From positions 62,001 through 126,000 of the forward strand of contig QAYY01000013.1 of NCBI GenBank assembly GCA_003054665.1: a stretch of 64,000 bases of DNA. The letters are read 5' to 3'. Of this stretch, positions 12,341-27,432 are shown piece after piece. This DNA is from Opitutaceae bacterium EW11 (GTDB lineage: Bacteria; Verrucomicrobiota; Verrucomicrobiia; Opitutales; Opitutaceae). The first letter of the stretch is position 1. Each line of letters opens with the position of its first letter. Below the pieces are notes generated by a model. That model had not been told where the DNA came from and ran no database searches. It saw only the letters and a list, made by a program, of their open reading frames with translations. The position numbers were made by a program, and so were the translations under genes.

Positions 12341-12676
12341 CCTCGAATATGGATATCGGAGCGCAATGGGAGTCAAAACAAAGTGGGTAGCGTGGCGCAG
12401 CGAATGGAATCTGCTTGGTTGCTGTTGACGAAAATCGCCTCTTTTGTGCGGATCTGCCGCGAATTTGCAGCACTCCAGCTCCGATGCGAAACGCGTGTGA
12501 GGCATACTGTCTATAAATGGCACATCTATTGTATGCTATAGCCGGAAGCCTGCGCCCCAGTCGGGGTTCTCCTCTCGTTGCGGGCGTTGATTATCCAACA
12601 ACTGGGTTGACAACGTCGGTTGCGGAACGGACCATCGTTGTAACGGCGGGGGCACGGGGTTCCTGCCATACTCCAA
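12341..12676. other. Divergent intergenic region
   Basis: 336 bp between the start of the M16 peptidase gene (minus) and the lipoprotein gene (plus). It must hold promoters for both directions. Short overlapping frames are present but none has coding character, and I see no repeat or hairpin to report. Confidence 0.45.
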
Positions 12677-13141
12677 ATGACTATCAAATCGAAAGTCTTG
12701 CAGGTTATTGCGCTGTTGGGGGTATCCTCAACTTGCTTGCTTATTACCGGATGCGACGACGAATACAACTCAAACGGCCCCTCGGTTACGGTGAGTCGTG
12801 ACTCCGAAGGAAATCCCACTGGCGTTGATGTTGCTGCCTCTGTCGACAATACTGATACCGGCACGAAAGCTACTCTTAAGACTCATGTGGCGGTAAACTC
12901 CCAGACTGGGGATGCAAACGCCACTACCACAGCTACCATTGAAAACCCCGTGCGCGTGACGGACAATTTGACCCTTACTCCGACAGCGACTTATAACCCG
13001 GGGACAAACGAGTTGGAACTCGGTGCTGGACTTGGCTATCGAAATGACGATGGCACCGTCTCTGTAGACTTTCTTGATTTCAAACATAACGTTAATACCG
13101 GCGCTAACACGGTTGGCGCAAAAGCGTCGTTCAAGTTCTAG
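12677..13141 (+). CDS. Beta-rich lipoprotein, 154 aa
   Basis: ATG at 12,677. Signal peptide with lipobox LITGC (about residue 26), so a predicted lipoprotein. The mature chain is rich in Thr, Asn, Val and Gly, with alternating hydrophobic residues (KATLKTHVAVNSQTGDANAT, TATIENPVRVTDNLTLTPTA) and a C-terminal aromatic (ASFKF), like strands of an outer-membrane beta-sheet. The family is unrecognised. A perfect hairpin follows at 13,172-13,200, so it may be transcribed apart from the nine-gene operon beginning at 13,256. Confidence 0.65.
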   Translation: MTIKSKVLQVIALLGVSSTCLLITGCDDEYNSNGPSVTVSRDSEGNPTGVDVAASVDNTDTGTKATLKTHVAVNSQTGDANATTTATIENPVRVTDNLTLTPTATYNPGTNELELGAGLGYRNDDGTVSVDFLDFKHNVNTGANTVGAKASFKF

Positions 13142-13171
13142 GAAGTCCAGATCTTAGTCACGATATACTGG

Positions 13172-13200
13172 TACTGCGCCCGTTTGTAGCGGGCGCAGTA
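13172..13200 (+). terminator. Perfect 11-bp hairpin upstream of the island operon
   Basis: Stem TACTGCGCCCG / CGGGCGCAGTA at 13,172-13,182 and 13,190-13,200 with a 7-nt loop. It lies 31 nt after the lipoprotein stop and 55 nt before the next start. No T-run follows, so it could be a weak terminator, an mRNA-processing or stability element between two differently expressed parts, or a protein-binding palindrome. Confidence 0.5.
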
Positions 13201-13255
13201 TGCCGCAGACTAGTTGATGCGGCGACTAGTTGGGGTCTGACCAAGCCGCATCTAT

Positions 13256-14326
13256 ATGTTGCACCGATTCGCGTCGGCTATTCTATTGCTTTTTGCATTC
13301 GTGCACCCTGCGGTCGCCAAAGCTGACGGGGTTGATCTGGAGGTCATTGAAGATGCTGCCTTCGCTCGACCGACGCTTCGTTCACTAGTCCTAGAAAGGC
13401 TGCCTCCCTTTAGGGAACGCATGATTCAGTTGGCGAAGAAGCGGGATATACAGTCGGTGTTGGGAAACGCGGAAGTCCAGAAGCAGATCTGCGGCGATAT
13501 CCGTCGGTTGGTAGGGGCCGGAATTCCCGTTGGGACTATCGCAGCCGCGTATGAAACTGCAGTTAAAAGCATCGATACGCGAGCTATGCAGGCCTGTAAT
13601 ATTTCGCGGGTCCAGCTATATAGCGGCCTGGAACTAAAGGAAAAATTGCGCAATGGTGCAATCGTTCCATATTTCTCGTACGACCGACAGAATGACATGT
13701 GTTCGTGGGATTGGAATGTCGAATCTGCCCGGTTGAGAAATGATACACCGGATGTGCCTTTTGTGGTCATTGTTACAAATAGAGCACAGAGTGATGAGGA
13801 GATTCTTGGCCACGTGTTTGAGGTTTATGAGGACATGCTTACTAGTACGATTAATGACCACTATGGTGTATACGGCTATCGCGTGATCAAGTCCGTGGCT
13901 AGCTATTCCCTCTACCGGCAGGCACCGAACCTCCCAGTCTGGCTCCGCGAGGGCATCGTTGGAGCCGTCAGTATTCATGTGCTCTCGGGAATGATCGGAA
14001 CCAAGAAAGCGCTGGATGCGTTCGGTAAGGTTCATGTAGAAGGTGAGCGGTTGAGTTCTCCCAACTTGCAGGAACTTTATCTTTGGGAGCCGCGATCCGC
14101 GAGCCCTTCCACGAACGCTGCATACGTACGAGCATCCACCCAACGAGTGTTGAGCATCGCGAATGTGGCTGGATACCGATGGATACCCTTTTGTGTTGCG
14201 GCATTGTCGAAGGCAGAGAAGGTTATGCCGGCTGATGTAGACGCAGCCATGTCCGAGGCTACCGGTGGAAAATATCGCTTTTCGGACGATAGAACACCCG
14301 TTAAGGTGGGTGGAACCTCAAGGTAG
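13256..14326 (+). CDS. Secreted protein of unknown function, first gene of island operon
   Basis: 356 aa, ATG start at 13,256. Residues 1-22 form a signal peptide (MLHRFASAILLLFAFVHPAVAKA). The mature protein is unrecognised. It has an N-terminal helical part, four Cys (QKQICGDI, MQACN, DMCSWDW, WIPFCVA) and a segment LPVWLREGIVGAVSIHV near residues 225-241. That segment recalls the WLxEG helix found after HExxH in some M1/MA-clan peptidase-like proteins, although no HExxH is present. It lies 12 nt upstream of the next gene, so it probably heads the operon. Confidence 0.6.
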   Translation: MLHRFASAILLLFAFVHPAVAKADGVDLEVIEDAAFARPTLRSLVLERLPPFRERMIQLAKKRDIQSVLGNAEVQKQICGDIRRLVGAGIPVGTIAAAYETAVKSIDTRAMQACNISRVQLYSGLELKEKLRNGAIVPYFSYDRQNDMCSWDWNVESARLRNDTPDVPFVVIVTNRAQSDEEILGHVFEVYEDMLTSTINDHYGVYGYRVIKSVASYSLYRQAPNLPVWLREGIVGAVSIHVLSGMIGTKKALDAFGKVHVEGERLSSPNLQELYLWEPRSASPSTNAAYVRASTQRVLSIANVAGYRWIPFCVAALSKAEKVMPADVDAAMSEATGGKYRFSDDRTPVKVGGTSR

Positions 14327-14338
14327 AACCTTCACCTC

Positions 14339-16714
14339 GTGCGTCGGCATAAGTACGTTCTACTCGGGGTTGTTTTGGCCGTTGCGTGTGTCTTGCTGGC
14401 GAGCTGGTTCTTCTTTCCAGCCATCCCCATTGTAGAATATAGCCATGGCGGCTTGACGCTTGAATCTTGGTTAGTCGCTGGGCCATTCACCCCTCGGGAG
14501 GGGGAAGATCCCTGGGCGACCGAATATTTAACGCTTCCTTCGGCAGGTGGATCACACCTGATGGCCGACGGGAATGGCCTACCAAATCCTTTGCGCCTTC
14601 GCGAGCGTGTCCGACTATTGAAAGCGCAAGTAGTGGATCTACAAAACGCTTACAGGCTTCCATATGATCCGGATTTGTTGCCTGCGGTTGCATACTCGGC
14701 GTGCCGGATCAAATGTGAATCCTCCGGTCTTGCTGTTTTGATGCTTGGGGCTACTGACTCCGTGCGTGTCTTTCTTAATGGCGTCTGTGTGTACGAGAAA
14801 CAAGCGCGTCGAGGGCTTGCGTTATATAACGATACGATCCCGATCTCGCTCACTAAAGGAATAAACGTTCTGGTGCTAAAAGTAGTCAGACTGCGTGGTG
14901 CGTGGGGGTTCACGGCGCGTCTTGAGCAATCGCCCGCGGATGCATGCGCCACTTCGTTAGCGAGTGAAGGATTGCTGAGAAACAGGCTACTTGCGAAAAA
15001 CATCTTTTTAGTTGGCGAGCCACTGGGCACGCTGGAGCGAATCTCACCGGTTCTTGGGATGAGCGCATTCACGGTCCTGAATGCCTCGGGGCAACGCGTG
15101 TGCTCTGCTAGCCCGCGATCGGTGCAGGGGGGGGGCGCACTCGAGCCACAGTTACGACTCAGCGCAGGCGTGTACATAATTGAGCTTTGCTTGAACAATC
15201 AGCGATATCGCGAGACGTTCTGTATCGGTTCCTTCGAGGAAAACGCTGCTCGCTTGCTTGAACGGACGGCTTCTCTACGTATCACTGAAAACCCTGACGT
15301 TCTAGCGATTTCTCGGCGGTTGGCTGCGCTGTCTATTCCTAAAAAGAGTCAGGATCGGAGCTGGGAAGTGAAAGCTGTTCATGCGTTGGAGGAACTGGAT
15401 GCGTTGCTTGAAGCGTCTTCTTCTGCGGGTCGAAGGCAGCTGCCGGCGGGTCTGCATTTCCTCGGGCTTAAGTCGAGGATTGACGAGTCCCTGCAATGCT
15501 ATCGGCTGTACGTTCCAGAGCAACGAGAGGCCCGCAAGCAGATCCCCCTTGTGGTGTTCTTGCCCACGGTCGCTTCAGCAGCTCGACCATTCATCGAGAG
15601 CGCTTTCGTTGCGGCGCATCAAGAAGCGGAGAAGATTTCCGCGTTCGCTGAACGAGATGGCGCAGCGGTTCTTTGGGTTGGTTATCATAGCCAACCATCT
15701 GGCGCGAAGATTGATTTGGTGCACCTCGATGAGGTTCTACAGGACGTGGCAAAGCGCGTAGAGATCGACATCTCCCGAATCGTACTTATAGGGAGTTGTA
15801 GCGGAGGAGCACTGGGTACTCTAGCCATTGCCGAATGGCCGCAGCGTTTTGCTGGGCTCGCGTTTCTCGATCCAGTATTTGTTCTAGAAAAGACGCCTTC
15901 GGACTCCGGACGTGCGTATTTTGCAGACCAAGCGCTGTTCACCGAGTGGCTGTCTGATACGGATTCGAGCCGATTCGTGCAGTTGCTACGGGATACTCCG
16001 ATATTGATGATTTACGACGGTGCGCAGCCTGGGCATGGTAGTCTCAAGATCGCGGAAGGGTTTACCCGGCTAGCGCGTCAGGCCGGTGCTAGAGTCGAAT
16101 TCCTCAATTTGCCACAGCCGTTGGCGCAGCATATGGATGCGTGGCGCCGGACTGTGGATTGGTCTGTTCGGCAGCGGCGAACCACAGTAATCGAAGCGCC
16201 AAAGAAATCGTCTGACGAAAGAGAATGTGTGATGGATGCACTAAGTAGTCCCTTCCTCTTAGTCGAAGGCACATCTGGGACGGACATTGACAGGGCGGCC
16301 ACTCAATCCGTCGTTCGATCCTTCGAGTCTGCTTGGCGAGAACTCACCTTCGGTTCCTGCAGAATACGAAAGGACATCGAGATTACGGAAGAAGAGACAC
16401 GACAATTCAATTTGGTTCTTGTCGGCAACGAGAAAACAAACTGCCTCATCTCGCGGTATGCTTCCGGATTGTTCAGCGGAAACACAATAACTGTTTCTGG
16501 CAGAAAATGGTCGAGTCCGCAGCTTACAGTACAAGTCTGTATCGAAAATCCGTTTGTTTCTCAGCGGCGGATCGTGGTATTAGGCGCCATAGATATGGTG
16601 AATTATAACGCACCCATACACTCGCTCCTGGTGGATGGGTGGTTCACTTCTGCGGTTTGGACGGGAGACCCAGGTCAGGCGGAGCTTGTGGAAGTGACTG
16701 CCCCGGAAATATGA
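14339..16714 (+). CDS. Membrane-anchored alpha/beta hydrolase with Cys nucleophile
   Basis: 791 aa from a GTG at 14,339, 12 nt after the upstream stop. Residues 7-28 are a signal anchor. Residues 100-200 resemble a galactose-binding-like beta-sandwich (VRVFLNGVCVYEK, LTKGINVLVLKVVRLRGAWG). Residues 395-620 are an esterase/prolyl-oligopeptidase-type alpha/beta hydrolase: the nucleophile elbow IGSCSGG places Cys487 where Ser is usual, with Asp560 (MIYDGAQPGH) and His598 (LAQHMDAW) as likely partners. Cys nucleophiles are known in dienelactone-hydrolase relatives. The last 150 residues are an unassigned domain. The active site should face the periplasm. It overlaps the ATPase gene by 4 nt. The substrate is unknown. 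Confidence 0.7.
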   Translation: MRRHKYVLLGVVLAVACVLLASWFFFPAIPIVEYSHGGLTLESWLVAGPFTPREGEDPWATEYLTLPSAGGSHLMADGNGLPNPLRLRERVRLLKAQVVDLQNAYRLPYDPDLLPAVAYSACRIKCESSGLAVLMLGATDSVRVFLNGVCVYEKQARRGLALYNDTIPISLTKGINVLVLKVVRLRGAWGFTARLEQSPADACATSLASEGLLRNRLLAKNIFLVGEPLGTLERISPVLGMSAFTVLNASGQRVCSASPRSVQGGGALEPQLRLSAGVYIIELCLNNQRYRETFCIGSFEENAARLLERTASLRITENPDVLAISRRLAALSIPKKSQDRSWEVKAVHALEELDALLEASSSAGRRQLPAGLHFLGLKSRIDESLQCYRLYVPEQREARKQIPLVVFLPTVASAARPFIESAFVAAHQEAEKISAFAERDGAAVLWVGYHSQPSGAKIDLVHLDEVLQDVAKRVEIDISRIVLIGSCSGGALGTLAIAEWPQRFAGLAFLDPVFVLEKTPSDSGRAYFADQALFTEWLSDTDSSRFVQLLRDTPILMIYDGAQPGHGSLKIAEGFTRLARQAGARVEFLNLPQPLAQHMDAWRRTVDWSVRQRRTTVIEAPKKSSDERECVMDALSSPFLLVEGTSGTDIDRAATQSVVRSFESAWRELTFGSCRIRKDIEITEEETRQFNLVLVGNEKTNCLISRYASGLFSGNTITVSGRKWSSPQLTVQVCIENPFVSQRRIVVLGAIDMVNYNAPIHSLLVDGWFTSAVWTGDPGQAELVEVTAPEI

Positions 16715-17400
16715 TCACTCCCCCTGTTCTTGTACTACGCGACGTACGAAAGAGCTTTTTGATCGGTTCTGATACCGTCTCGATTCTTCGTGGCGTAAAT
16801 GTCGTCATTCCGCCTGGTGATTCCGTTGCCGTGCTCGGCCCCAGCGGCAGCGGCAAGACCACTTTGCTTAACATCGCGGTTGGGATTGAAGATGCAACGG
16901 CCGGCGAGGTTGAGTTGCAGGGGAGACCAATTCATCGGCTGAGACCGAATGAACGCGCTGATATGCGAAGATCGTGCGTCGGATTTGTGTTCCAGGACTT
17001 TCGATTGATAGATGCGCTTTCTGTGTTGGATAATGTAACGGTTCCCTTGCGTCTAGCCGGTCGGCGCGTAGGAAGACTAGATGCGATGGAGCTTCTTGAC
17101 CAGCTGGGTCTTGCAAGTCGGGTGGATCAACCAATTGATCGACTGTCCGGCGGAGAACGTCAGAGAGTCGCCATTGCAAGGGCCCTAATCGGAAAACCTG
17201 CGTTGATCGTCTGTGATGAGCCAACAGGAAATCTCGACCGTGAAACGGCAACGAGGGTGGCTACGGTCCTCTTCAGCTTGGTTCGATCTTCTGGTGCGGC
17301 CTTGATCGTTGCAACTCACGACGAGTCGCTGGCGCTTCAGTGCAATCGAATCCTTCGCTATAACGACGGGCTGTTCAATCAACATTCGGAATCGCGTTAG
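16711..17400 (+). CDS. ABC transporter ATP-binding protein, LolD/MacB type
   Basis: The start is taken at the ATG at 16,711 (MITPPVLVLRDVRKSF), which overlaps the upstream stop as ATGA; 229 aa. Walker A GPSGSGKTT, signature LSGGERQRVAIARAL, Walker B ALIVCDEPTGNLD and the H-loop VATHDE are all intact. Length and motifs fit the LolD/MacB/FtsE group, which drives FtsX-type permeases in lipoprotein release, mechanotransmission or periplasmic export rather than solute import. Its permease is encoded 2 nt downstream. Confidence 0.93.
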   Translation: MITPPVLVLRDVRKSFLIGSDTVSILRGVNVVIPPGDSVAVLGPSGSGKTTLLNIAVGIEDATAGEVELQGRPIHRLRPNERADMRRSCVGFVFQDFRLIDALSVLDNVTVPLRLAGRRVGRLDAMELLDQLGLASRVDQPIDRLSGGERQRVAIARALIGKPALIVCDEPTGNLDRETATRVATVLFSLVRSSGAALIVATHDESLALQCNRILRYNDGLFNQHSESR

Positions 17401-17402
17401 CA

Positions 17403-19874
17403 ATGCTCGGTGTCGTCATCTTGATTTTGCAGCTGTTCACAAGGCGACGGCTGTCATTGCTCGGCATGTGCTTGTTCCCGGTGCTTGGAGCGTGTGCAGT
17501 GATGATGGTCGACTGTTTGGGCAGAGGATTGCGGACAAGCTTCAGCGGTGAGGCTCGACAAGTGCTTGGGGCCGACCTTGTGGTGAGTTTCTGGGGACCG
17601 CCGGCTGCCAATGTTGAGGAGGCCATCGCGGAGCAAGGGGCGCGCACCTGTCGTGAAGCGATCTTTGGTTCAATGCTTGTAAGCGAGAGCGGTGCTCACC
17701 GGGTGCAAGTACACTCGGTCAATGGAGCTTACCCGTTCTACGCGCGCTCCGGTGTGGTGCCTAGCATTTCGACGTGGGAGCAGTTGAAGGACGCTGGTGG
17801 AGCCCTGTACGTCGAGCGACGGTTATTGGAGTCGGCACGGCTCGCAATCGGGGACAAAGTGGTGGTCGGGGGAAACTCTTTCACGATCCGGGAAGTCGTG
17901 GAGAATATCCCGGGGGAACTAACCACGGTCGGGCGTCTCGATCCTGCCGTCTTCCTTCGCAGTGCTGACTGGAAGACTGGGTACGGGGCGCTCGTGAACA
18001 CGAAGATTCGAGTCGCGGCTGAAGAACCGGCGGCCATTGTACGGATCCAAGCGATGCTGAGCGACAGCTATGGACTGAACAGCCTATCTATCGAAACCCC
18101 GGACCGATTGTTGCGTAGGTATGATAGGTACGTTGATCGGTTCGAGCGCTTCTTGAGATTGTGTGGTATTTGCCTGTTGCTTCTCGGCTTGGTGGGAATG
18201 GCTGCAGTTAGCTTAGCGGTGTGGGACAGAGAGCTTGAGCCCATCACGACCTTATTGTTGCTCGGTGCTCGGTCGACTCACATATTTACCGCGCAAGCAC
18301 TTCTGGGAATTGGACTGGCGGGGCTGAGCGCCGGCGCCTCTGCAATCCTGGCATGGTGGATTATGCCGTTTGCGACGGAGGCTCTGCAAGGCGTGCTTCC
18401 GTGGAAGTTGGACGCGCCTCTTGAATATGTTGGAATAGCTCCATGGTCGGGACTGCAATCTTCTGTGATGCTTGTATGGGTCTTGATGCTGGCTGCTTCT
18501 TCCGTCCGTGCCGCGCCGCAGCATGCCCGTCGTCTAGACCTTATAAAGAGGAATAATGCGATTCTCGTTGCGTGCGGCTTCATTGCGGCGGTTTGGTTGT
18601 TCACCCGTACTTTTCTGCCTTCGTGGCGGAGCATCGTTATTGACGTCGTGATGTCCACGGGTCTGGTAGCGACCGCGTGTCTTGGTTGTGGACTGGGCAT
18701 CAAAGTGTTCCATTCGTTTGTCGCAGCCCATTGTGGACCGTGGCTTCGGTGGGTCGCCGCGAATCTCGAGCACAAGCGTCTGCACTCGATCGTGGTGATT
18801 GTCTCATGGGCGAGCATTATGGGTGTGTTGTGCGTGATCCAGATTTCGCACTCATTATTAAAGAAAAGAATGGGGCTTGCGCGCGGAGGACCGAACGTCG
18901 TGATCACCAATCTTTCGCTAGACGATCTCGACGGGGCCAAAGCGTTCCTGGATTCGATGCAAGTGAAAGTTACGGCTGTACCGCTAGTCCAGGCGACCAT
19001 AGAGAACGTACAATTTGGGAACGGGCGAAAAGGGAATAACTCTCTTGATGGTTCCTCGTTTCTGGCGACCTATCGAGATGTAGTCTATCCGACAGAGACG
19101 GTAATTGACGGTGAGTTCGAGGACACTAGCCCAACGCATTCGGCAATCGTGCCGATCTCTATCGACGAGCGGGTGGCGAAGAAAGGACTGAGTGTCGGGG
19201 ACCTTGTTGGATGGGACATTTCGGGTGTCCCTGTGCAAACTCGGGTTGCTAGCATTCGAAGTTCAGACTCGGCCCGCTTCTATCTAGATCATCCAATCGT
19301 GTTCCCTTCCGGCATCATTGATAAGGCGCCGCAGCGCTACATGTTGCTATGTGAAAGCCCGTCATCTGTAAAGGCGCCACTAGTCGTCCGCAAGATGGCA
19401 GAGCGTTGGCCGCGAGTGTTGGCGTTCGACGTTGGTCTCGATGAAAGACTCATTGGGGAACTTCTCGACAGAGCTCTGGGGGTCGTCAGAATTGCTGCCC
19501 TTGGGATCGCCGCACTTGGGCTGAGCGTTAGTATCACACTTCTCATCGGCATCCGCCGCGCACGGCGAGAAGCATACAGAGTCCTTCGGGTCATTGGTGT
19601 GAGCGGCGCACGGGTGCTCTTTCTAAATGGCGCAGAGGCGCTGACCATTGGGACGATCTCCGCGTTTATTGCGGTAGCGACTTGCGTGGTGTCGGTGCGA
19701 TGGGTTTGTGTCCATGTTCTCGAGGTGCAGCCGGGAAGCGGGATGTGGTCGATACTTGTGCTGTTCATATTTTGGACGCTAATCTGTTCGAGTGCCATGG
19801 GCGCCCTTGGGTATCTGGCGCAATACGCTTTCGAGCCTAAAGATAGAAATGCACAAAACCGATCGATAGAATGA
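17403..19874 (+). CDS. ABC transporter permease, FtsX/YbbP-like with duplicated domains
   Basis: 823 aa, ATG at 17,403. An N-terminal membrane helix is followed by a large extracytoplasmic domain (about 45-250, MacB-PCD-like). Then come an FtsX-type membrane block (255-370), further helices (385-490), a second periplasmic domain (490-680) and a final three-helix block (690-800). This two-domain layout resembles YbbP and other large permeases paired with LolD-type ATPases, which act on lipoproteins, lipids or hydrophobic envelope molecules. It overlaps the next gene by 4 nt (ATGA). No separate MacA-like adaptor is recognised, but the next two anchored proteins could play that part. Confidence 0.85.
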   Translation: MLGVVILILQLFTRRRLSLLGMCLFPVLGACAVMMVDCLGRGLRTSFSGEARQVLGADLVVSFWGPPAANVEEAIAEQGARTCREAIFGSMLVSESGAHRVQVHSVNGAYPFYARSGVVPSISTWEQLKDAGGALYVERRLLESARLAIGDKVVVGGNSFTIREVVENIPGELTTVGRLDPAVFLRSADWKTGYGALVNTKIRVAAEEPAAIVRIQAMLSDSYGLNSLSIETPDRLLRRYDRYVDRFERFLRLCGICLLLLGLVGMAAVSLAVWDRELEPITTLLLLGARSTHIFTAQALLGIGLAGLSAGASAILAWWIMPFATEALQGVLPWKLDAPLEYVGIAPWSGLQSSVMLVWVLMLAASSVRAAPQHARRLDLIKRNNAILVACGFIAAVWLFTRTFLPSWRSIVIDVVMSTGLVATACLGCGLGIKVFHSFVAAHCGPWLRWVAANLEHKRLHSIVVIVSWASIMGVLCVIQISHSLLKKRMGLARGGPNVVITNLSLDDLDGAKAFLDSMQVKVTAVPLVQATIENVQFGNGRKGNNSLDGSSFLATYRDVVYPTETVIDGEFEDTSPTHSAIVPISIDERVAKKGLSVGDLVGWDISGVPVQTRVASIRSSDSARFYLDHPIVFPSGIIDKAPQRYMLLCESPSSVKAPLVVRKMAERWPRVLAFDVGLDERLIGELLDRALGVVRIAALGIAALGLSVSITLLIGIRRARREAYRVLRVIGVSGARVLFLNGAEALTIGTISAFIAVATCVVSVRWVCVHVLEVQPGSGMWSILVLFIFWTLICSSAMGALGYLAQYAFEPKDRNAQNRSIE

Positions 19875-20755
19875 AAACCGTCGTGACTTGGATCTGTTTC
19901 TTTGCAGCCGTGATATCCGGGATCGGCTGGGTTTTGGCCGTGAAAAGACTAAATGCGGCCGAATCGGAATTATCCGCGCTCGGTCGCACTGTTGCAAATA
20001 TGCGGGAAAAGGCTTGGGAGCGAAGCAGCACTAGCTCGGGGGAAGCTCTCCGTGGCGCTCGTGATCCGCTAGGACCGGCTCATGACGACCCTCGCGACGA
20101 CTCTGGTTTCGGGGCTCCGATCAAGTCGATGGTTGATGACTGGGTACAACTAGTGAACTCTCCCGAAGCGCAGGAGTTGATGTCCGCTCAGTACACTGCC
20201 GAGATCAGCTCGAGATATGCGAACGTATTTCGGGCTTTGCAGCTCAGCCCGGACACCCTCAAAAGATTCAAAGACCTGTTGCTTGAACGGCAGAGGATCG
20301 ACAATGATGCGATCGCGATAGCGTTCCAGAAAGGTATCAATCCGCTCACAGATCCGCAGGCATATGGCGCCATCCTTACGAACGTTCGGAGCGATATAGA
20401 TAGCCAGATTCAGCAAACACTTGGTGAGAACAAATTCCGGGAGTTGCAGCAGTATCAGTCTGGACAACAAGCGAGATCTACGGTGAATCAGCTGGCGCAG
20501 TCGCTCAGTTATACGCAGGACCCGTTGACGCAAGACCAGCGGCAGGCAATGCAATCTCTCCTTGGGATGACTTCAGGGGGATCTGCCGGGAAGCAAAGGG
20601 GGCGGATAACGGCCGCGGTTGCAGAGCAGGCGAAGTCTTTTCTCCGTCCTTCGCAAATGGATGCTGTGCACGAGATAATGAGAGCGCAGGATGCGCAGGA
20701 CGCATTGGCTCAGATTCGTAGAAACGCTCAGAGTCGGAGAGCCACCGGAAAATGA
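19871..20755 (+). CDS. Membrane-anchored coiled-coil protein, 294 aa
   Basis: One N-terminal membrane helix (residues 5-24), then a helical periplasmic or cytoplasmic domain rich in Gln, Ala and charged residues, likely coiled-coil. Segments such as LSPDTLKRFKDLLLERQ, TLGENKFRELQQYQSGQQ and LTQDQRQAMQSLLG recur in hypothetical proteins that I associate with Opitutales genomes, but I cannot name a family. Translationally coupled at both ends by 4-nt overlaps, so its amount should match that of the permease. It could be an adaptor for the ABC complex (inference). Confidence 0.65.
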   Translation: MKTVVTWICFFAAVISGIGWVLAVKRLNAAESELSALGRTVANMREKAWERSSTSSGEALRGARDPLGPAHDDPRDDSGFGAPIKSMVDDWVQLVNSPEAQELMSAQYTAEISSRYANVFRALQLSPDTLKRFKDLLLERQRIDNDAIAIAFQKGINPLTDPQAYGAILTNVRSDIDSQIQQTLGENKFRELQQYQSGQQARSTVNQLAQSLSYTQDPLTQDQRQAMQSLLGMTSGGSAGKQRGRITAAVAEQAKSFLRPSQMDAVHEIMRAQDAQDALAQIRRNAQSRRATGK

Positions 20756-21507
20756 CCTCTGCCAAACTCAGACGAAATGGCAAACCGCTAGTGTTTGTGT
20801 TCATCGGATTAGCGATCGTCGGTGTCGTTATCTGGCCGTATATGAGGAGAATCCGAACAGCAGACGAACTGTTGATTTTGAAAGGACAACTTGCGAAACC
20901 GGAGCAATTTGTGGGCACTACAGACGCCGATTTCTTTGTGATTGAACTCAAGTCACCGACCGTGAGTGAAGAAACTGTACGTAAGAGCGGAATTGGACCA
21001 ACGACTATCATTGCCGATGGAGAGAGTCGCACATGGGTGCTAAAGCTGTCGCGAGCTTTCGGAGCACAAAAGACGCAGAGCGAGCTTCGTATTGTGTTCC
21101 GCAGGGGGAAGCTGGCTGAGCTAAGGCTTCCTCGTCCGGTTGGCCGTTTTGTATCGAAAGAAGCTCTAGCGCAGTATTGTCGAATTCTTGGTAACTCGAC
21201 GATCGACTTAAAGCGTAAGCGATCTGTTCTGGATCCCAGAGCGGGGGTTGCGATAAATGCTTTGGAGTTTCCAGATGCGTCAGACAGCTTGGCTATGTTT
21301 GGGGAGCCGAATTCTCGAAGTGAGGTCGGCATGAATCAGGTCAATTCGTACGTTCAGCAAATCGAGAAGCCAGACGGAAAAGGTGTGAAGAGTTTCAAGA
21401 TCAACCTCGTTTTTCACAGGTTTACAGGCACGTTTAAGTACGGCGTGGTTGCGCTGGCTGGATACGGCATTATATTCGATGAGGCTGGTGTTTCGATACG
21501 CCGATGA
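20752..21507 (+). CDS. Single-span membrane protein, 251 aa
   Basis: ATG at 20,752 overlapping the previous stop (ATGA). Residues 12-30 form one membrane helix (PLVFVFIGLAIVGVVIWPYM). The rest looks like a mixed alpha/beta extracytoplasmic domain with strands such as TWVLKLSRAF, SELRIVFRRG and SFKINLVFHRF. The family is unrecognised. It is the second consecutive small anchored protein after the permease. Confidence 0.6.
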   Translation: MTSAKLRRNGKPLVFVFIGLAIVGVVIWPYMRRIRTADELLILKGQLAKPEQFVGTTDADFFVIELKSPTVSEETVRKSGIGPTTIIADGESRTWVLKLSRAFGAQKTQSELRIVFRRGKLAELRLPRPVGRFVSKEALAQYCRILGNSTIDLKRKRSVLDPRAGVAINALEFPDASDSLAMFGEPNSRSEVGMNQVNSYVQQIEKPDGKGVKSFKINLVFHRFTGTFKYGVVALAGYGIIFDEAGVSIRR

Positions 21508-21519
21508 GTAGGCGGTCTT

Positions 21520-22194
21520 GTGGCTCAAGGACTATCAAATAAGGTAAGGGAGCCAGCGGCATTCCTGGGCTTCTTGTGGCGTCTGCTCCTTGGGGCGCTC
21601 GGGGCCCTAGTTTGCGTCGCTGCAGTTCTAGCATTTGCCTTTAGTAAGGCAGGTTCGCGTATAGCGTCTTTCAGTTTGGTTGAGCCGATATTATTGAACG
21701 ACGCAAACATTGTTGCTGATTATGTTTGTGACGGGGATGGTGTCCGGCTGCCCTCGCATTTGCGGGTCGGAACTCTGAGCAGTGGCGAAGTGTCGCACTT
21801 AACGGACGTGCAGCAGATTGTTGTCGTTGGTCGACGCGTTAGCTTTGCACTGTTTTTCATCTTCGCGATATCGCTCGGCTTCTGCTCGAAAAGATCGCGT
21901 GCTTGGGTCGCGCGAGCTTCGTTCGTAGTTTCCGTTGCATTTGGTGGCGGTTTCGCGGCGTTAGGGTGCTTGAATTGGCGAGGAAGCTTCATTTTGGTCC
22001 ATCTAGCTCTGTTCAGAGAGGGATCTTGGCAGTTTACATCGGACGCATATCTGCTGCAGCTGTTTCCGGCGAGATTCTGGGCGTTAACTGCTTTGTCGGT
22101 GATTGTTGCAGAGTCGGTGGTGTCGTGGAGTTTCTGGCGATGCCTGAGCGCTTTGGCCGGACATCGCGTCTACTTGGGTAAAGTGCGACCATGA
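21520..22194 (+). CDS. DUF1461-like multispan membrane protein
   Basis: 224 aa from GTG at 21,520, 12 nt after the upstream stop. About four membrane helices (18-45, 105-120, 130-155, 180-205). The stretch FILVHLALFREGSWQF plus LLQLFPARFW resembles the signature of the DUF1461/TIGR01906 membrane family, in which a His/Phe-rich loop precedes L-x-x-L-F/Y-P-x-x-F-W. Members have no well-established function. It overlaps the O-antigen-ligase-like gene by 4 nt. Confidence 0.6.
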   Translation: MAQGLSNKVREPAAFLGFLWRLLLGALGALVCVAAVLAFAFSKAGSRIASFSLVEPILLNDANIVADYVCDGDGVRLPSHLRVGTLSSGEVSHLTDVQQIVVVGRRVSFALFFIFAISLGFCSKRSRAWVARASFVVSVAFGGGFAALGCLNWRGSFILVHLALFREGSWQFTSDAYLLQLFPARFWALTALSVIVAESVVSWSFWRCLSALAGHRVYLGKVRP

Positions 22195-23576
22195 TCTTCT
22201 GGTACGAAAGTGCAGTACGGCTGGCTTGGCCATTTGGTTCGCCAAATGAACTTGGCGCAGCAATGGCGATGCTTCTTCCCTACGTCTGGGCGTGTGCTGG
22301 AGGGACACGTCGATGGAGTTTCGCTACTTTAGGATGGCTGTCTGTGGAGGGAGTTCTATTTTGGGTGCTTTGCAGGACGTATTCACGTGGGGCTTTGTTG
22401 GCCCTGTCTATCGCGATGCTTGCGTACGCATGGTTGAGCTGGGATTCCAGATCTAGACATCACCGAAGGATGGTCTTCTACGAGTGGGCGACCAGAGTTG
22501 TGCTGATGGTATGTATCGTCTGGTCGGTCGGGGTGTATAGGAGGGTATCGTACGAATACGTGGGGGCGGACCCTGGAGTTCACACACGGCTAGTGCTCGC
22601 CCGAGCCGCTTTGGAGATGGTTCGGGATAGTCCCTGGATAGGCTGGGGGTGGAATCGAGGAATCTACTCTTACATGAATTGGTATCAGCCGCTCTCCGAT
22701 CACCATGTCTATGGGAATTTCGTCAGCGGTGTTGTTCAGTTTGCCGTTGATAACGGGCTTCTTGCGCTTGGGGCAGCTACCGTCTGCGTTGGGATTATTC
22801 TCGCACCAACAGTACTTGCGGTGAGGGGTGGAACGGCCTGGCCGACGTTCCGTTTCCGTGGGCTGTTCGGAGTATCCTTCGCCGCCGGTCTGGTTGCCAA
22901 TTGTTTCTCATGCCTCACGTCTAGCATGCTCTTCACCAGCATGTGGGTGATCACTGCGGTACTTTCCGCGTGTGGCGTTTGGACGTTGGCGCGGGAAGTG
23001 CAGAAACGTGTTTTGAGCCTATCGGTGATCGGTGGTATGGCAGTACCGGCGTTGATACTAATTGCAGGCGGATGCCTCTCGCCCGATGTATCTCTGTTAA
23101 CTGGCAGGATGGAGGACGGAACTGTGGTGATTCGTGCTAGACGTGCGGTATCTCAGGCGCATGTCGTTCATACCTTCGTTGACCCTGCGGTCATGGCCGG
23201 AGGGGGGGGGAAGTTGATTAGGGAACTCGCGATGGGCGCCAAGAACGCTACATTCTATGTGCACAATAGGCCGACCGACCGCGTGTTGAATAAGGGCGAC
23301 AAGCTCTTGTTAATGGGGCGATCCTGGGAAGTCGGATTGAGGTATCCTGACCAGTCGAAGGCTCTATTGCATCCGATGCTAATTGTTGGCGAAAAGTGGC
23401 TGCAGAACGTGGATATCGTTTCGCTTGGTGAGGCTGATTTCGAGTTTCAGAATGGCTACTGGATCCATCATTACGGAGGCACATCGGAGATATTAATCGA
23501 TCCGACGATGGGGCGGGCGCTGGCATTTTGGCCTTCCTTGCTCAAGGAGAGGTTGTATGCATGGATGGATAACTAG
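22191..23576 (+). CDS. O-antigen ligase/polymerase-like membrane protein
   Basis: 461 aa, ATG at 22,191. The first 300 residues are multispan with hallmarks of the Wzy_C/WaaL family: RTYSRGALLAL, followed after a loop by PWIGWGWNRGIYSYMNW and DHHVYGNF, the periplasmic region normally containing the catalytic Arg/His. The last 150 residues are an extra soluble domain (MLIVGEKWLQNVDIVSLGEA) not found in classical ligases. Such proteins transfer undecaprenyl-linked glycans, or other substrates, to acceptors in the periplasm. No Wzx or glycosyltransferase gene is in the operon, so the substrate is not evident. The end overlaps the next gene by 20 nt. Confidence 0.7.
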   Translation: MIFWYESAVRLAWPFGSPNELGAAMAMLLPYVWACAGGTRRWSFATLGWLSVEGVLFWVLCRTYSRGALLALSIAMLAYAWLSWDSRSRHHRRMVFYEWATRVVLMVCIVWSVGVYRRVSYEYVGADPGVHTRLVLARAALEMVRDSPWIGWGWNRGIYSYMNWYQPLSDHHVYGNFVSGVVQFAVDNGLLALGAATVCVGIILAPTVLAVRGGTAWPTFRFRGLFGVSFAAGLVANCFSCLTSSMLFTSMWVITAVLSACGVWTLAREVQKRVLSLSVIGGMAVPALILIAGGCLSPDVSLLTGRMEDGTVVIRARRAVSQAHVVHTFVDPAVMAGGGGKLIRELAMGAKNATFYVHNRPTDRVLNKGDKLLLMGRSWEVGLRYPDQSKALLHPMLIVGEKWLQNVDIVSLGEADFEFQNGYWIHHYGGTSEILIDPTMGRALAFWPSLLKERLYAWMDN

Positions 23577-24498
23577 AGGCTTTTGCGCTGTCTGGTTGTT
23601 AGCTGGCGCCGTGGATGGTTTGTCCTCAAGCGGACCATCGTTGGGGCACATCGGAGCCGATGGCACGCTGTGTTTTCAGATCCGATTGGGAGTTATTGAA
23701 GGCCCCGGATACAGCATACCGGTTGAAATGGATCACAGGATTGCCGTTGATTATGCAGGGGCGGCGAAGAGTGTGTGGCAAATACCTGCGTTTGAATCGT
23801 ACTTGGTGGCTATCTCATCGAGCGAGTGGGAGGTGCAGTTTCCGACAGGCGAGCGCGAGCGGTTCGAGTTCTTAGCAGGAAGCCAAGCTCTGGGGCAGGG
23901 AGCCCACGGTCGAGCCTGGGTACGCGGAGATGTGAGCGGGCGTTACGAAATCCAGTCCGCAGAAGGAGAAGTGTACGTTTTTAAGTCTTCGAGACTAAAC
24001 CGAATAGATATCGCACGTAATACTATATGGTTTAGTGTTGTCGATTCGGGGATTCGCATTACCAGGGGAGAGTCTGGTGCATTACTGGGTGAGATTCAGA
24101 GAAGTGAAATCGGTGAGCCTGTGAGAGTTTCCTTGCATGGCAGAGTTTTCCGATTCATATATGATAAACAGCGTCTCCTTAGGGCGGTTTGCGATAGAGA
24201 CGATAAGTTGATTGCGGAACTGAACTACAGAGGGAATCTGCTTCAGACGGTTAGCATGCCGAACAGGCCAGTTGTCCGTATCGAGTGGCGCCTTCGGTCG
24301 GACGGGGGGAGCACGGCAACTGTCCTGGATTCGCCGCCAGTAACCCTAGCCGCTGTTGATGATGAGCGTTATGATGTATCCGCACGCGGCCCTCTAAGAA
24401 TCCTACGGCGTTCGTTAGTGACGAGCGGCCGTAGGGATGCATTGATCATCGACACTCTGTCGGGGTCTGTTACTCATGAAGAGGATGGGTATGAGTGA
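23557..24498 (+). CDS. Secreted YD-repeat (RHS-like) protein, 313 aa
   Basis: ATG at 23,557, inside the end of the previous gene (20-nt overlap). The N-terminus has a likely signal peptide (CAVWLLAGAVDGLSSSG). Residues 195-255 carry one YD/RHS-type repeat: VFRFIYDKQRLLRAVCDRDD, then LIAELNYRGNLLQTV. The family forms beta-cocoons in large RHS toxins and wall-associated proteins. At 313 aa this is far shorter, with no toxin tip and no PxxxxDPxG core cleavage motif. It ends the nine-gene operon. The role as a substrate or scaffold is inference. Confidence 0.65.
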   Translation: MHGWITRGFCAVWLLAGAVDGLSSSGPSLGHIGADGTLCFQIRLGVIEGPGYSIPVEMDHRIAVDYAGAAKSVWQIPAFESYLVAISSSEWEVQFPTGERERFEFLAGSQALGQGAHGRAWVRGDVSGRYEIQSAEGEVYVFKSSRLNRIDIARNTIWFSVVDSGIRITRGESGALLGEIQRSEIGEPVRVSLHGRVFRFIYDKQRLLRAVCDRDDKLIAELNYRGNLLQTVSMPNRPVVRIEWRLRSDGGSTATVLDSPPVTLAAVDDERYDVSARGPLRILRRSLVTSGRRDALIIDTLSGSVTHEEDGYE

Positions 24499-24694: not shown

Positions 24695-24727
24695 CGAACG
24701 GATCGAATTCAGAGTTCGATCCGTTCG
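24695..24727. repeat. 13-bp perfect inverted repeat at recombinase 3' end
   Basis: Arms CGAACGGATCGAA (24,695-24,707) and TTCGATCCGTTCG (24,715-24,727) are exact reverse complements with a 7-nt spacer. The recombinase stop codon (complement of 24,709-24,711) lies in the spacer, so the last codons are part of the structure. As RNA it would be a strong hairpin and may end both convergent transcripts, but it lacks a T-run. As DNA it could be a protein-binding palindrome. Confidence 0.75.
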
Positions 24728-26409
24728 GAGAGAACCTGCCAGCCGCTCCCATGAGACGCTCGGGCCCGGCCGATCAGCCTCAGGGCGCCGTTACTGAATT
24801 CGACAAGAAGCCACATTTCTTTCGCACGAGCGAAACGCCGTAGGGGATCTCCGACTATGCGGAGCTTGCCCTGGGTGAGCGCTACCAGGAAGCGTCCGCG
24901 CTGCTGCTCGTTCAACCTAGAAAGTTCCTTGAGGCTACTCGCGGCCTCCACACGCGAAATGACTCGATTGAAGGCAGTCATGGCCCGCTGCCGTGTCACG
25001 TTGTTTTGAAGGTTGACCGAGAGAGCCTCTAGGTCTCGTAACGGCAGCTCAGGGGGCGCTGTGTTTGACGCGCTATAGGCTTCAAGGGTCTCTAGCTGTG
25101 CCTCTTTTGCGCGGATCTCGGTCTCCACCTCCCTCAGCCGGTTTGCGACTGTTACGCTCCCTGACTCAATCGCAGCCAGGAGGTTTTTCGCGCGGATTCG
25201 AAGCGCCTCCAAATCAGATCGCAGACCGTGCACCGGTGAGATATCAATCTCAGTCTCTTTGCTCGTTGCCAGGTCAGCGGCGGTAACCTCGAGTAGCCCT
25301 GCCACAAGGACCGCGTCTAGGTAGGTAGAGTTGCAGCACCAGAGCATCTTTCCGTCGGTATCCTCACTCAGGCATTCGTAGTAGTGATTGTGACCTTTGA
25401 TTCCGGTTTCCGGATCTGGGAGCCCATTGCGGTGACTCGCGTACCGGCACCAATGTCCTTGGAAGTGCAGCAGACCTCGGAGCATATTGATGGGGCGCGA
25501 TAGATCTCCTGGTCGCCCTCTGGCTCCCCGCATGTTCTTCCTCATCTGCGCCCTCGCTGCCGCGGCTAACTCCGGGTCGATGATCCGGGGGTAGTAGCCC
25601 TCGATCCTGTGAGTGCGGCCAGCTGCTTTCGTTTTTGCGGTTTCCTTGAGGGTACCGAGGGGACCATCGGAGTTCACAAGGCCCCGTACGCGACATGCGA
25701 GCCACTTCTTCGTTTTTGGGCGCCAGGTTGGGGTGTTCTTTTCGTTGAGTAGACGCGCGATGCGCGCCGAAGAATAACCCTTGGCTGTAAGCTCGAAGAC
25801 CTTTTGCACTACTGCTCGTCGGTCGGGCGGCGAAACGATCTTCAGTCTCGTCGCATCGTAAACGAGCCACCACGGCAGTGACGCACGGAGGAGGGTGCCT
25901 TTCTGCGCATCCTCGCGTTTGCGCGCCCAAGCCTCTTGGAGGCGCATGCTCTTGGTCTCGGATTCTTCATTTGCGCGCATCGCGAGCGCCACGGCGAGAA
26001 TCAGGTCAATGCCTTCATCGGGTCCCGAATTAGGGCGTAGGACCCGGTTGACGGACGTCAGGTGCACTTCTATTCCAAGATCTAATAGGCGGTTTAGGAG
26101 AGCGACTGTCTTTCTTGGGCTCTGCCGTGAAAGACGATCCAGGGACTCGACGATTATTGCGCTGCCACGAGGAACCGCCCCCTGCTCTACTAAGGCAATG
26201 AACTTGCCAAGGTCGCCCTTTTCAACGTTGCGTCCTTTGAAGGCAGATACGCCTTTGTCGAATAGCTCGAGGGACCTATCTAGCTTCAACCCAAGGCGTT
26301 GGCAATATGCCTCGGTGCTTGTTGCTTGTCGCCTAGTCGAGTCTCCGAGTTGCTGGTGCAGTCGGGAGAACCTGAGATAAGAGTAAGCAAGTTTAGGCGA
26401 GGTGTTCAC
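24709..26409 (-). CDS. Large serine recombinase (site-specific integrase)
   Basis: 566 aa from a GTG complementary to 26,407-26,409. The N-terminal resolvase domain (1-150) has the YLRFS motif with catalytic Ser15, the STRRQ segment and SLDRLSRQ. Next come a recombinase domain (about 165-275; WLVYDATRLKIVSPPDRRAV, SSARIARLLNEK), a zinc-ribbon-like region (about 300-380, GHWCRYASHRNG, YYECLSEDTDG, LWCCNSTYLDAV) and a coiled coil (400-500). This is the domain order of phage-type large serine integrases that join attP and attB and need a directionality factor for excision. It lies 40 bp from the comM junction, so it is very probably the enzyme that inserted the island. No directionality factor is recognised in the window. 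Confidence 0.95.
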   Translation of the reverse strand: MNTSPKLAYSYLRFSRLHQQLGDSTRRQATSTEAYCQRLGLKLDRSLELFDKGVSAFKGRNVEKGDLGKFIALVEQGAVPRGSAIIVESLDRLSRQSPRKTVALLNRLLDLGIEVHLTSVNRVLRPNSGPDEGIDLILAVALAMRANEESETKSMRLQEAWARKREDAQKGTLLRASLPWWLVYDATRLKIVSPPDRRAVVQKVFELTAKGYSSARIARLLNEKNTPTWRPKTKKWLACRVRGLVNSDGPLGTLKETAKTKAAGRTHRIEGYYPRIIDPELAAAARAQMRKNMRGARGRPGDLSRPINMLRGLLHFQGHWCRYASHRNGLPDPETGIKGHNHYYECLSEDTDGKMLWCCNSTYLDAVLVAGLLEVTAADLATSKETEIDISPVHGLRSDLEALRIRAKNLLAAIESGSVTVANRLREVETEIRAKEAQLETLEAYSASNTAPPELPLRDLEALSVNLQNNVTRQRAMTAFNRVISRVEAASSLKELSRLNEQQRGRFLVALTQGKLRIVGDPLRRFARAKEMWLLVEFSNGALRLIGRARASHGSGWQVLSERIEL

Positions 26410-26439: not shown

Positions 26440-26462
26440 TGGAACTAATTATCCATCTTCTA
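26440..26462. other. Probable attachment-site junction (att) in comM
   Basis: On the minus strand comM reads LRQPLEDG, a conserved stretch of the family, then meets TAA at 26,449-26,451, after which the sequence is unrelated. The crossover must lie at or just before this point. Serine integrases recombine at a 2-bp core inside a short region of shared sequence, so the exact bases need the other junction, which is outside the window. Confidence 0.65.
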
Positions 26463-27432
26463 GAGGTTGACGGAGCACCTCCAGCGCCGAGCGCCGAAAC
26501 TCCGGCAGTTCGTCGAGGAAAAGGACGCCATGATGGGCGAGGGAAATCTCGCCTGGCCCCGGGATGGATCCCCCTCCGAGCAGTCCCACGTCCGAAATCG
26601 TATGGTGCGGGCTGCGGACAGGGCGCTGTCCCAGCGGAACGCTTCCGTGCAGCGTCTGGCCGGCTGCGGAGTGAATGCTCAAGATCTCAAGCGATTCGTC
26701 GAGCGTAGGGGACGGCAGGATACCCGGGATGCGTTTTGCCACCATCGATTTTCCTGAGCCCGGCGGGCCGATCATCAGCAAGTTGTGGCCGCCGGCTGCC
26801 GCCACTTCGATCGCGCGGCGCAGCGCGTATTGTCCCTTCACTTCCGCAAAGTCGTTTTGGCAGGATTCCGCGACGCCGATCGGCGTCGGCGGCAAACATG
26901 GCTCCGGAGCAATCGAGCTTTCGCCCGCGAGAAAGCGAAACGCCTGGTCGAGCGATTCGACTGGATAGACGGAGACGCCCTCGACGAGAGAGGCTTCCCG
27001 CGCGGAGGATGCGGGAAGAAGCAGACCTCGTTTACCGAGGGATTTTGCCAGACGCGCCATCGCCAGGGCGCCTCGCACCGGGCGAGTTGCTCCCGACAGG
27101 CTGAGTTCGCCGGCGATCAGAAAGTCGTCGAGTCGTTCAGCCTTGAGTTGACCGGTTGCGACGAGGATCCCGAGCGCAATTGGAAGATCGTACATCGGGC
27201 CCTCCTTGCGCACGTCGCCCGGAGCCAGGTTGATCGTCGTGCGGGTCCAGGGGCGTTGAAAACCAGAATTGCCGAGGGCAGATGTGACCCGATCGTTCGA
27301 CTCCTTCACCGCCGTGTCCGGCAGGCCGACGAGAATCAGCTTCGGCTCGCCGGATTCACCGGTGTTGACCTCGACCCACACAAGCTCCGCGTCGATGCCC
27401 TGAAGCGCGGCCGAAAACAACGTGGCTAACAT
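26449..27432 (-). pseudogene. comM: comM/yifB Mg-chelatase-like AAA+ ATPase, truncated by the island
   Basis: 327 residues from [17 protein letters not shown]. The N-terminal ChlI-type domain ([38 protein letters not shown]), Walker A GPPGSGKS and Walker [14 protein letters not shown] are intact. Family members are about 500 residues; this one ends at LEDG, so the sensor and arginine-finger parts and the C-terminal Mg_chelatase_C domain are lost. ComM is a branch-migration helicase that helps integrate transforming DNA. The truncated protein is unlikely to work. The split is where the island begins, not a random nonsense mutation. Confidence 0.9.

Follow-up and report, generated by a model that had tools for sequence, protein, structure and literature searches.

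In Escherichia coli, tesA neighbors ybbAP. Their products are described as a 2:1:1 complex with esterase activity, in which the YbbAP transporter has been proposed to withdraw hydrophobic molecules that TesA then hydrolyzes, an extraction that the authors describe as still to be confirmed; its permease, YbbP, has 10 transmembrane (TM) segments with large periplasmic domains between TM1-2 and TM7-8 (PMC12646458, passages on YbbAP). A second point of reference is the lipoprotein intramolecular transacylase Lit, which according to a review has no homologs in Gram-negative bacteria and which, as lit2, is carried on a mobile copper-resistance element (PMC8689077, passages on Lit). Here, we analyzed a 64,000-nucleotide (nt) stretch of DNA (the window) from Opitutaceae bacterium EW11 (Verrucomicrobiota; contig QAYY01000013.1, positions 62,001 to 126,000), in which a nine-gene operon (g1 to g9, 13256-24498 of the window, forward strand; Table 1) holds genes resembling parts of both. 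Our preferred reading, held tentatively, is that the operon is a mobile envelope machine acting on acylated molecules, in the sense of acyl or lipoprotein remodeling. By analogy with YbbAP-TesA, g3 and g4 would extract an acylated substrate, possibly a lipid or lipoprotein, from the inner membrane, and g2 would hydrolyze it. The Lit-family protein g7 would move an acyl chain, probably on the N-terminal cysteine of lipoproteins, for which the product of the upstream gene g0 would be the nearest candidate. In view of the phylum-wide recurrence of the g8-g9 pair together with secreted hydrolases, g8 would act in the membrane as a scaffold, or as an altered transferase, for g9, the secreted YD protein; g1, g5, and g6 are taken as accessory, and the products may form a physical complex.

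The nine-gene operon is real. Successive genes are spaced by 12, -4, 2, -4, -4, 12, -4, and -20 nt; with each junction either an overlap or a gap of no more than 12 nt, the genes can fairly be read as a single transcript whose translation is coupled. These measurements bear out the tight coupling described in a first-pass annotation of the sequence; its placement of the set, as a unit, on a mobile island is likewise supported. The complete set was found once only among the loci examined, and literature searches on the gene combination turned up no described system with the whole set, as the annotator, who knew of none, had also stated. Independent occurrence of homologs elsewhere had been named as the outcome that would speak against a single machine, and this is largely what emerged: g2 (in parts) and g3 to g9 all occur elsewhere, the exception being g1, for which 1 of 194 genomes matched, namely its own. 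The parts are known separately, but none of our searches turned up the combination, Lit-family enzyme included, in a second place.

Table 1. Coordinates of the operon genes and adjoining features within the window.
Feature	Position	Strand	Assignment	Details
g0	12677..13141	+	Putative lipoprotein; separate unit just upstream	LITG|C lipobox, Cys26, then DDE
Hairpin g0-g1	13171..13201	+		14-pair stem, 3-base loop; region z -3.81; 0/200 shuffles fold as well
g1	13256..14326	+	Secreted 356-aa protein, fold unassigned	No Pfam/NCBIfam match
g2	14339..16714	+	N-terminally anchored 791-aa multidomain alpha/beta hydrolase	Nucleophile-elbow Cys487 (GSCSGG)
g3	16711..17400	+	YbbA/LolD/FtsE-type ABC (ATP-binding cassette) ATPase	Walker A GPSGSGKTT, signature LSGGERQR, Walker B CDEPTG
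g4	17403..19874	+	YbbP-like Type VII permease	823 aa, 10 TM, large periplasmic loops TM1-2 and TM7-8
g5	19871..20755	+	Anchored protein	Family common in the host's family; 25/212 genomes, own paralog at C5:359486
g6	20752..21507	+	Anchored 251-aa protein	3/212 genomes; three other matches, one in the same genome
g7	21520..22194	+	Lit-family (lipoprotein intramolecular transacylase) protein	4 TM, His93/His161
g8	22191..23576	+	Short Wzy_C-like membrane domain and C-terminal alpha/beta-hydrolase-fold domain without triad	
g9	23557..24498	+	Secreted short YD/RHS-family protein	Family profile E 1.4e-9
Serine recombinase	24709..26409	-	Likely integrase, at the element's end	PF00239, PF07508
comM/yifB, N-terminal part	26449..27432	-	Host gene	Truncated at the element boundary, inside the Mg_chelatase domain

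The transporter genes account for the likeness to YbbAP. The ATPase g3 scored best against the YbbA model (223.9 bits), followed by LolD (198.7 bits) and FtsE, all below the equivalog cut-offs; the earlier assignment as a LolD-type ATPase thus holds for the class, whereas YbbA is the better-scoring model and the start lies probably at 16711 rather than 16639. The permease g4 matched the YbbP model NF041854 across residues 18-802 (E 1.4e-19), carries a MacB_PCD Pfam match in its first loop, and shows ten TM regions in its hydropathy profile, one of which was scored as two adjacent peaks; its two large loops are placed as in YbbP. It had rightly been read as a large permease, although it resembles YbbP rather than LolC/E. 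As in the described system, a hydrolase gene lies alongside, with g2 directly 5' of g3 and overlapping it, comparable to the tesA/ybbAP neighborhood reported in the passages cited above (PMC12646458). In contrast to that system, g2 encodes an anchored multidomain alpha/beta hydrolase with a cysteine instead of a GDSL-type TesA, and the operon is mobile, carries additional Lit, Wzy_C, and YD genes, and has a permease far below the YbbP cut-off. Since the host keeps its own YbbAP (YbbP at C11, 24% identical to g4, with an adjoining ATPase and a GDSL open reading frame [ORF], the layout reported for tesA-ybbAP), g3-g4 represents a second, divergent pair. Among eight ybbP loci fetched, four have an adjacent GDSL/GDSI ORF by motif, and a fifth has one about 4.5 kb off. 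Searches with g4 gave no match in viral contigs and chance-like matches only in the Protein Data Bank (PDB) by sequence.

The same transporter invites two other explanations. One, which we consider unlikely, is that g3-g4 pull Lit-modified lipoproteins from the membrane as LolCDE does, for display on the surface; the Lit-family enzyme, the putative lipoprotein next door, and an ATPase scoring near LolD fit this view, and the Type VII class is shared with LolCDE, whereas a single 10-TM permease replaces LolC/LolE, g3 falls short of the LolD cut-off (307.75 bits), and no LolA or LolB family is among the Pfam and NCBIfam matches shown. The other, a resistance or immunity pump of the BceAB or lactococcin-972 type directed against peptides or lipid-binding antibiotics, is the least probable of the explanations weighed. 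BceAB has the same 10-TM fold (PMC12646458, same passages) and g3 reached 172.3 bits with TIGR03608, yet the cut-off of that model is 254.85 bits, and no sensor kinase was recognized among the nine genes with Pfam and NCBIfam. An anti-phage defense system was rejected: PADLOC matched g3 alone of ten proteins (best, mad3, E 1.6e-29; mad8, E 2.4e-9), which we took as shared ATPase likeness.

The protein g7 passed the PF07314 cut-off (47.1 bits; cut-off, 24), in agreement with its initial description as DUF1461-like, DUF1461 being the former name of the family now called Lit. It matched Bacillus cereus Lit (PDB 7b0o) with an E of 3.7e-5, and His93 and His161 align with His85 and His153 of that enzyme, both pairs being 68 residues apart. 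Shared with the Firmicutes Lit (PMC8275575, passages on its residues; PDB 7b0o-7b0r) are the Pfam family, the four TM segments, the histidine pair, and the aromatic residues: g7 keeps the valine at +4 of the first histidine and the phenylalanines at -4 and +4 and tryptophan at +9 of the second, with equivalents of His85, His153, Phe157, and Trp162 of Lit present. The catalytic histidine pair is intact, and g7 would be predicted to carry out the sn-2 to N acyl transfer of Lit. Like lit2, g7 is borne on a mobile element; unlike the Firmicutes genes, it resides in Verrucomicrobiota, in an operon of ABC transporter and hydrolase genes, and scores under the NCBIfam cut-offs. At E 0.001, PF07314 was matched in 3 of 387 genomes of the phylum, two of them over the cut-off, including the host genome; the other (G275, L081:3585-4250) has the gene on a 5.8-kb contig on which no ORF matches the rest of the operon. 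The below-cut-off match (G356) contains four stops and was rejected, and a Lit match in G009 was dropped as its ORF was un-Lit-like in sequence and context. Searches with g7 and g8 in plasmids gave no match, and a literature search pairing DUF1461 with lipoprotein found nothing.

The elbow motif of g2 agrees with its reading as an anchored hydrolase with a cysteine nucleophile, and by position Asp560 and His598 could complete the triad. The family matches behind the hydrolase assignment are below threshold or weak (Abhydrolase_6, 18.8 bits, cut-off 26.3; NF050058, 27.4 bits, cut-off 150; PDB esterase 8daj, E 0.0016). Many verrucomicrobial proteins contain stretches that match the outer domains of g2 (45 of 212 genomes; for the most part residues 100-200 or 630-750).

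The first-pass annotation had proposed that the ABC transporter and a glycan ligase attach or release a surface polymer, and the protein on which this hinged, g8, does belong to the Wzy_C family (PF04932, 51.1 bits; cut-off, 31.7). O-antigen ligases carry a catalytic HN motif in a periplasmic loop. In the 37-row alignment of g8-like proteins, the histidine position of this motif is occupied by valine in 36 rows and isoleucine in one, so the ligase motif is lost in every row; a family-specific histidine three residues past that place is found in 31 of 37 rows, g8 not among them. By comparison, HN is kept in four of six longer Wzy_C-type ORFs, and one of the remaining two is itself g8-like. The structural model of g8, built with 37 sequences (predicted local distance difference test, 85.4; predicted template modeling score, 0.85), comprises a membrane part and a C-terminal alpha/beta-hydrolase fold, whose residues 304-461 resemble esterase 2wtm (Z 13.4; root mean square deviation, 3.0; 157 aligned). 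Among the 50 matches listed by VIA-align, the hydrolase fold gave Z of 12.3-13.4, the membrane half being barely tested there; Foldseek gave no match to g8 at E 0.001 or better, and its alignment matched nothing in the PDB by sequence. An elbow serine occurs in 3 of 37 rows, including g8, and G-x-G-H near the C-terminus in none. Compared with the Wzy_C O-antigen ligase/polymerase superfamily, g8 therefore shares the PF04932 core, whereas its N-terminal part is shorter than in the long ORFs compared, HN is missing, and a hydrolase-fold domain is added. A search with g8 matched 29 of 230 genomes, a count that includes ordinary long ligases. The annotator had seen no sugar-nucleotide or transferase gene, and indeed no sugar, glycosyltransferase, or sugar-nucleotide gene was recognized among the nine with Pfam and NCBIfam. 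A PMT_2-like glycosyltransferase family (F10) is present in 6 of 38 loci of g8 relatives, in favor of a glycan polymer. With the motif lost and no sugar gene recognized, we rejected the ligase reading, and polymer attachment or release appears improbable. The genes g2-g4 point to extraction and hydrolysis of lipids, and g7 to acyl transfer on lipoproteins.

Relatives of g8 offered a wider view. The g8-type pattern fetched 69 stretches, of which 38 were confirmed by a scan with the g8 alignment; 33 of these are labeled as Verrucomicrobiota groups or Lentisphaerae/Kiritimatiellae, four as "(uncultured) bacterium," and one as a metagenome-assembled Blastochloris. Their 532 ORFs, called with a simple longest-ORF caller, were clustered into families, 19 of which were profile-tested; g8-like genes form family F0, which was called in 36 loci (all except L053 and L071). 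Three loci (L057, L063, and L073) were left out of the 37-row alignment for length, and the duplicates L031=L067, L035=L077, and L038=L061 contribute at most one copy each. Among the 36 loci, at least 31 contain an alpha/beta hydrolase (F1), 24 a YD protein (F2), 13 an ABC ATPase-permease (F4, type assigned from one member), and 7 a radical S-adenosylmethionine (SAM) enzyme (F7, assigned from three); F1 and F2 occur together in at least 21, and F4 or F7 in at least 20. These counts are lower bounds because flanks did not exceed 10 kb and the contigs were in part short. Of 37 F0 genes, 27 have F1 as their immediate 5' neighbor, 24 of them within 168 nt. An alignment of 19 F1-type proteins (F1 members plus relatives in L032-L037) has invariant Ser143 and His221, and its profile matched PDB esterases and depolymerases with E down to 6.4e-10, while Pfam hydrolase families matched 1 of the 19.

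The last two genes of the operon connect to these families. g8 matched the F0 profile with an E of 4.9e-40, and g9 matched the profile of 27 YD/RHS-type F2 proteins with an E of 1.4e-9 (database size set to 5000). The earlier description of g9 as a YD-repeat protein has this profile match in its favor; g9 has no Pfam match of its own, RHS_repeat (PF05593) included; three of three scanned relatives match PF05593 at E 0.05 or better, two of them over the Pfam cut-off. As judged from these profiles, g8 and g9 belong, as diverged representatives, to a cassette of secreted hydrolases, a short Wzy_C protein, and a YD protein that recurs across the phylum and for which literature searches found no description. 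g1, g2, g4, g5, and g7 matched none of the 19 families, and g6 matched F0 alone, at E 7.1. The idea that YD proteins are lipoproteins was discarded: a lipobox is present in 7 of the 27 and in 96 of all 532 ORFs, without clear excess, and g9 has none.

At three of these loci (L034:3572-6098, L056:3788-6595, and L066:564-5860), radical SAM/SPASM maturase genes are followed by genes for 348-390-residue proteins with many Cys/Asp repeats, with a twin-arginine translocation (Tat)-like RRxF start in L056 and L066. The maturases of L034 and L066 are PapB-like; together with that of L074, they matched PapB best, at 208-259 bits, under the cut-off of 340. Three of the four repeat proteins were scanned and gave no NCBIfam match; the repeat proteins are candidates for very large ranthipeptide-type substrates adjoining the hydrolase/short Wzy_C cassette. 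Rhodanese, MauE/DoxX, ICMT/PEMT-like, and PMT_2-like genes adjoin the cassette in L040 (11330-12333 and 16782-19308) and in several other relatives, hinting at redox and glycosyl steps there.

These observations raise a serious alternative, less probable than our preferred reading, in which the operon represents a diverged version of a cassette found throughout the phylum for the maturation or display of secreted proteins, the YbbAP-like transporter takes the place of the usual exporter in processing or exporting a peptide or protein cargo, and the lipid chemistry is incidental. The profile matches of g8 and g9, the recurrence of F1 with F2 and of F4 or F7, and the repeat proteins next to radical SAM maturases with PapB as their best match argue for it. 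On the other hand, the operon encodes neither a Cys-rich cargo nor a radical SAM enzyme, no counterpart of Lit was detected in the F0 loci, and g2 fails the F1 profile.

Acyl or lipoprotein remodeling is favored by the alpha/beta hydrolases beside the g8 family and by the putative lipoprotein g0 adjoining the operon, yet several findings weigh against it. In the 38 loci, g8 relatives had neither a Lit nor a g4 relative detected next to them, and they sit in part with an ABC-2 exporter or a radical SAM enzyme. Lipid extraction is thus no requirement of the g8-g9 pair, and an assembly of parts is likelier than an old conserved system, which lowers our confidence in a single tight mechanism. Because their equivalog scores are below the cut-offs, g7 (TIGR01906, 44.0 bits, cut-off 74.8; NF051877, 28.3 bits, cut-off 400) and g4 (69.5 bits against a 999-bit YbbP cut-off, one that is passed in 1 of 14 control genomes and that the host's better YbbP at C11, with 303.4 bits, also fails) may have drifted in function. 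With Lnt already encoded in the genome (287.7 bits; cut-off, 132.9), N-acylation can do without Lit. The hydrolase g2 falls outside the GDSL enzymes and has cysteine instead of serine as nucleophile. It also does not match the F1 profile, for which reason we claim superfamily likeness alone.

A joint reading, possible though more doubtful than either taken alone, is that Verrucomicrobiota share an undescribed envelope cassette (secreted alpha/beta hydrolases, a short Wzy_C fused to a triad-less hydrolase-fold domain, and a secreted YD protein) with swappable front ends. Such a front end could be an ABC-2 exporter, a radical SAM enzyme of the PapB-like type together with Tat-type Cys/Asp repeat proteins, or, in the mobile version described here, a YbbAP-type extractor with a Lit-family enzyme in a Gram-negative operon; this last would make a transferable system that re-acylates and displays surface proteins. 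The g8 and g9 families in any case reveal a recurring verrucomicrobial cassette, partly beside PapB-like (ranthipeptide-type) maturases. If acyl remodeling is correct, the operon would give a Gram-negative bacterium already equipped with Lnt a second way to edit the acyl chains of lipoproteins, and the extract-and-hydrolyze principle proposed for YbbAP-TesA would serve other hydrolases too. A Lit-family protein with an intact catalytic pair in a Gram-negative bacterium also contrasts with the printed description of Lit as a Firmicutes enzyme in the review passages cited above (PMC8689077).

The genomic setting indicates a mobile origin. Third-position GC of the operon genes is 0.51-0.61, against values of 0.79 and 0.81 for two chromosomal genes in the window, and regional GC is 0.53-0.55 at 12-24 kb, compared with 0.59-0.66 past 26 kb. 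The element is inserted in comM/yifB, and the genome's one Mg_chelatase_C match sits on another contig (C27:689987-690277). Since the C-terminal domain of comM/yifB is there, the element appears to extend leftwards from C5:88449 and past the end of the contig, and with the two halves of the gene on two contigs its far part is not in one assembly piece. Left of the window (C5:42001-62000), a TrwC relaxase and a TraG/D-like protein are encoded. Given the recombinase and the cut comM/yifB downstream and these mobilization genes to the left, we place the operon as cargo of a conjugative-type or mobilizable element, at its recombinase end. The same left-hand region also encodes a Type ISP restriction specificity domain.

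The nearest ORF 5' of the operon, g0, lies 114 nt from g1 with a strong hairpin between, a terminator or regulatory element that a terminator scan requiring a T run does not list. g0 is a possible substrate of the operon; the loose lipobox pattern, found in so many ORFs of the loci above, is weak evidence by itself for a lipoprotein. An M16 (insulinase-like) zinc peptidase with HLLEH is encoded divergently from g0 (9554-12523 of the window, reverse strand); it is likely secreted if its start is near 12340 and may belong to the system. Hydropathy indicated an N-terminal hydrophobic segment in g1, g2, g5, and g6. The single-sequence model of g1 was unusable (predicted local distance difference test, 40.6), and a metalloprotease was rejected as no HExxH was found by eye. 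A distant g6 relative in another genome (L132) has a lipobox-like start. Relatives of g5 adjoin what we read from the ORFs as topA- or class II aldolase-like genes, with apparent topA genes in four loci of the host's family (L126, L129, L130, and L131).

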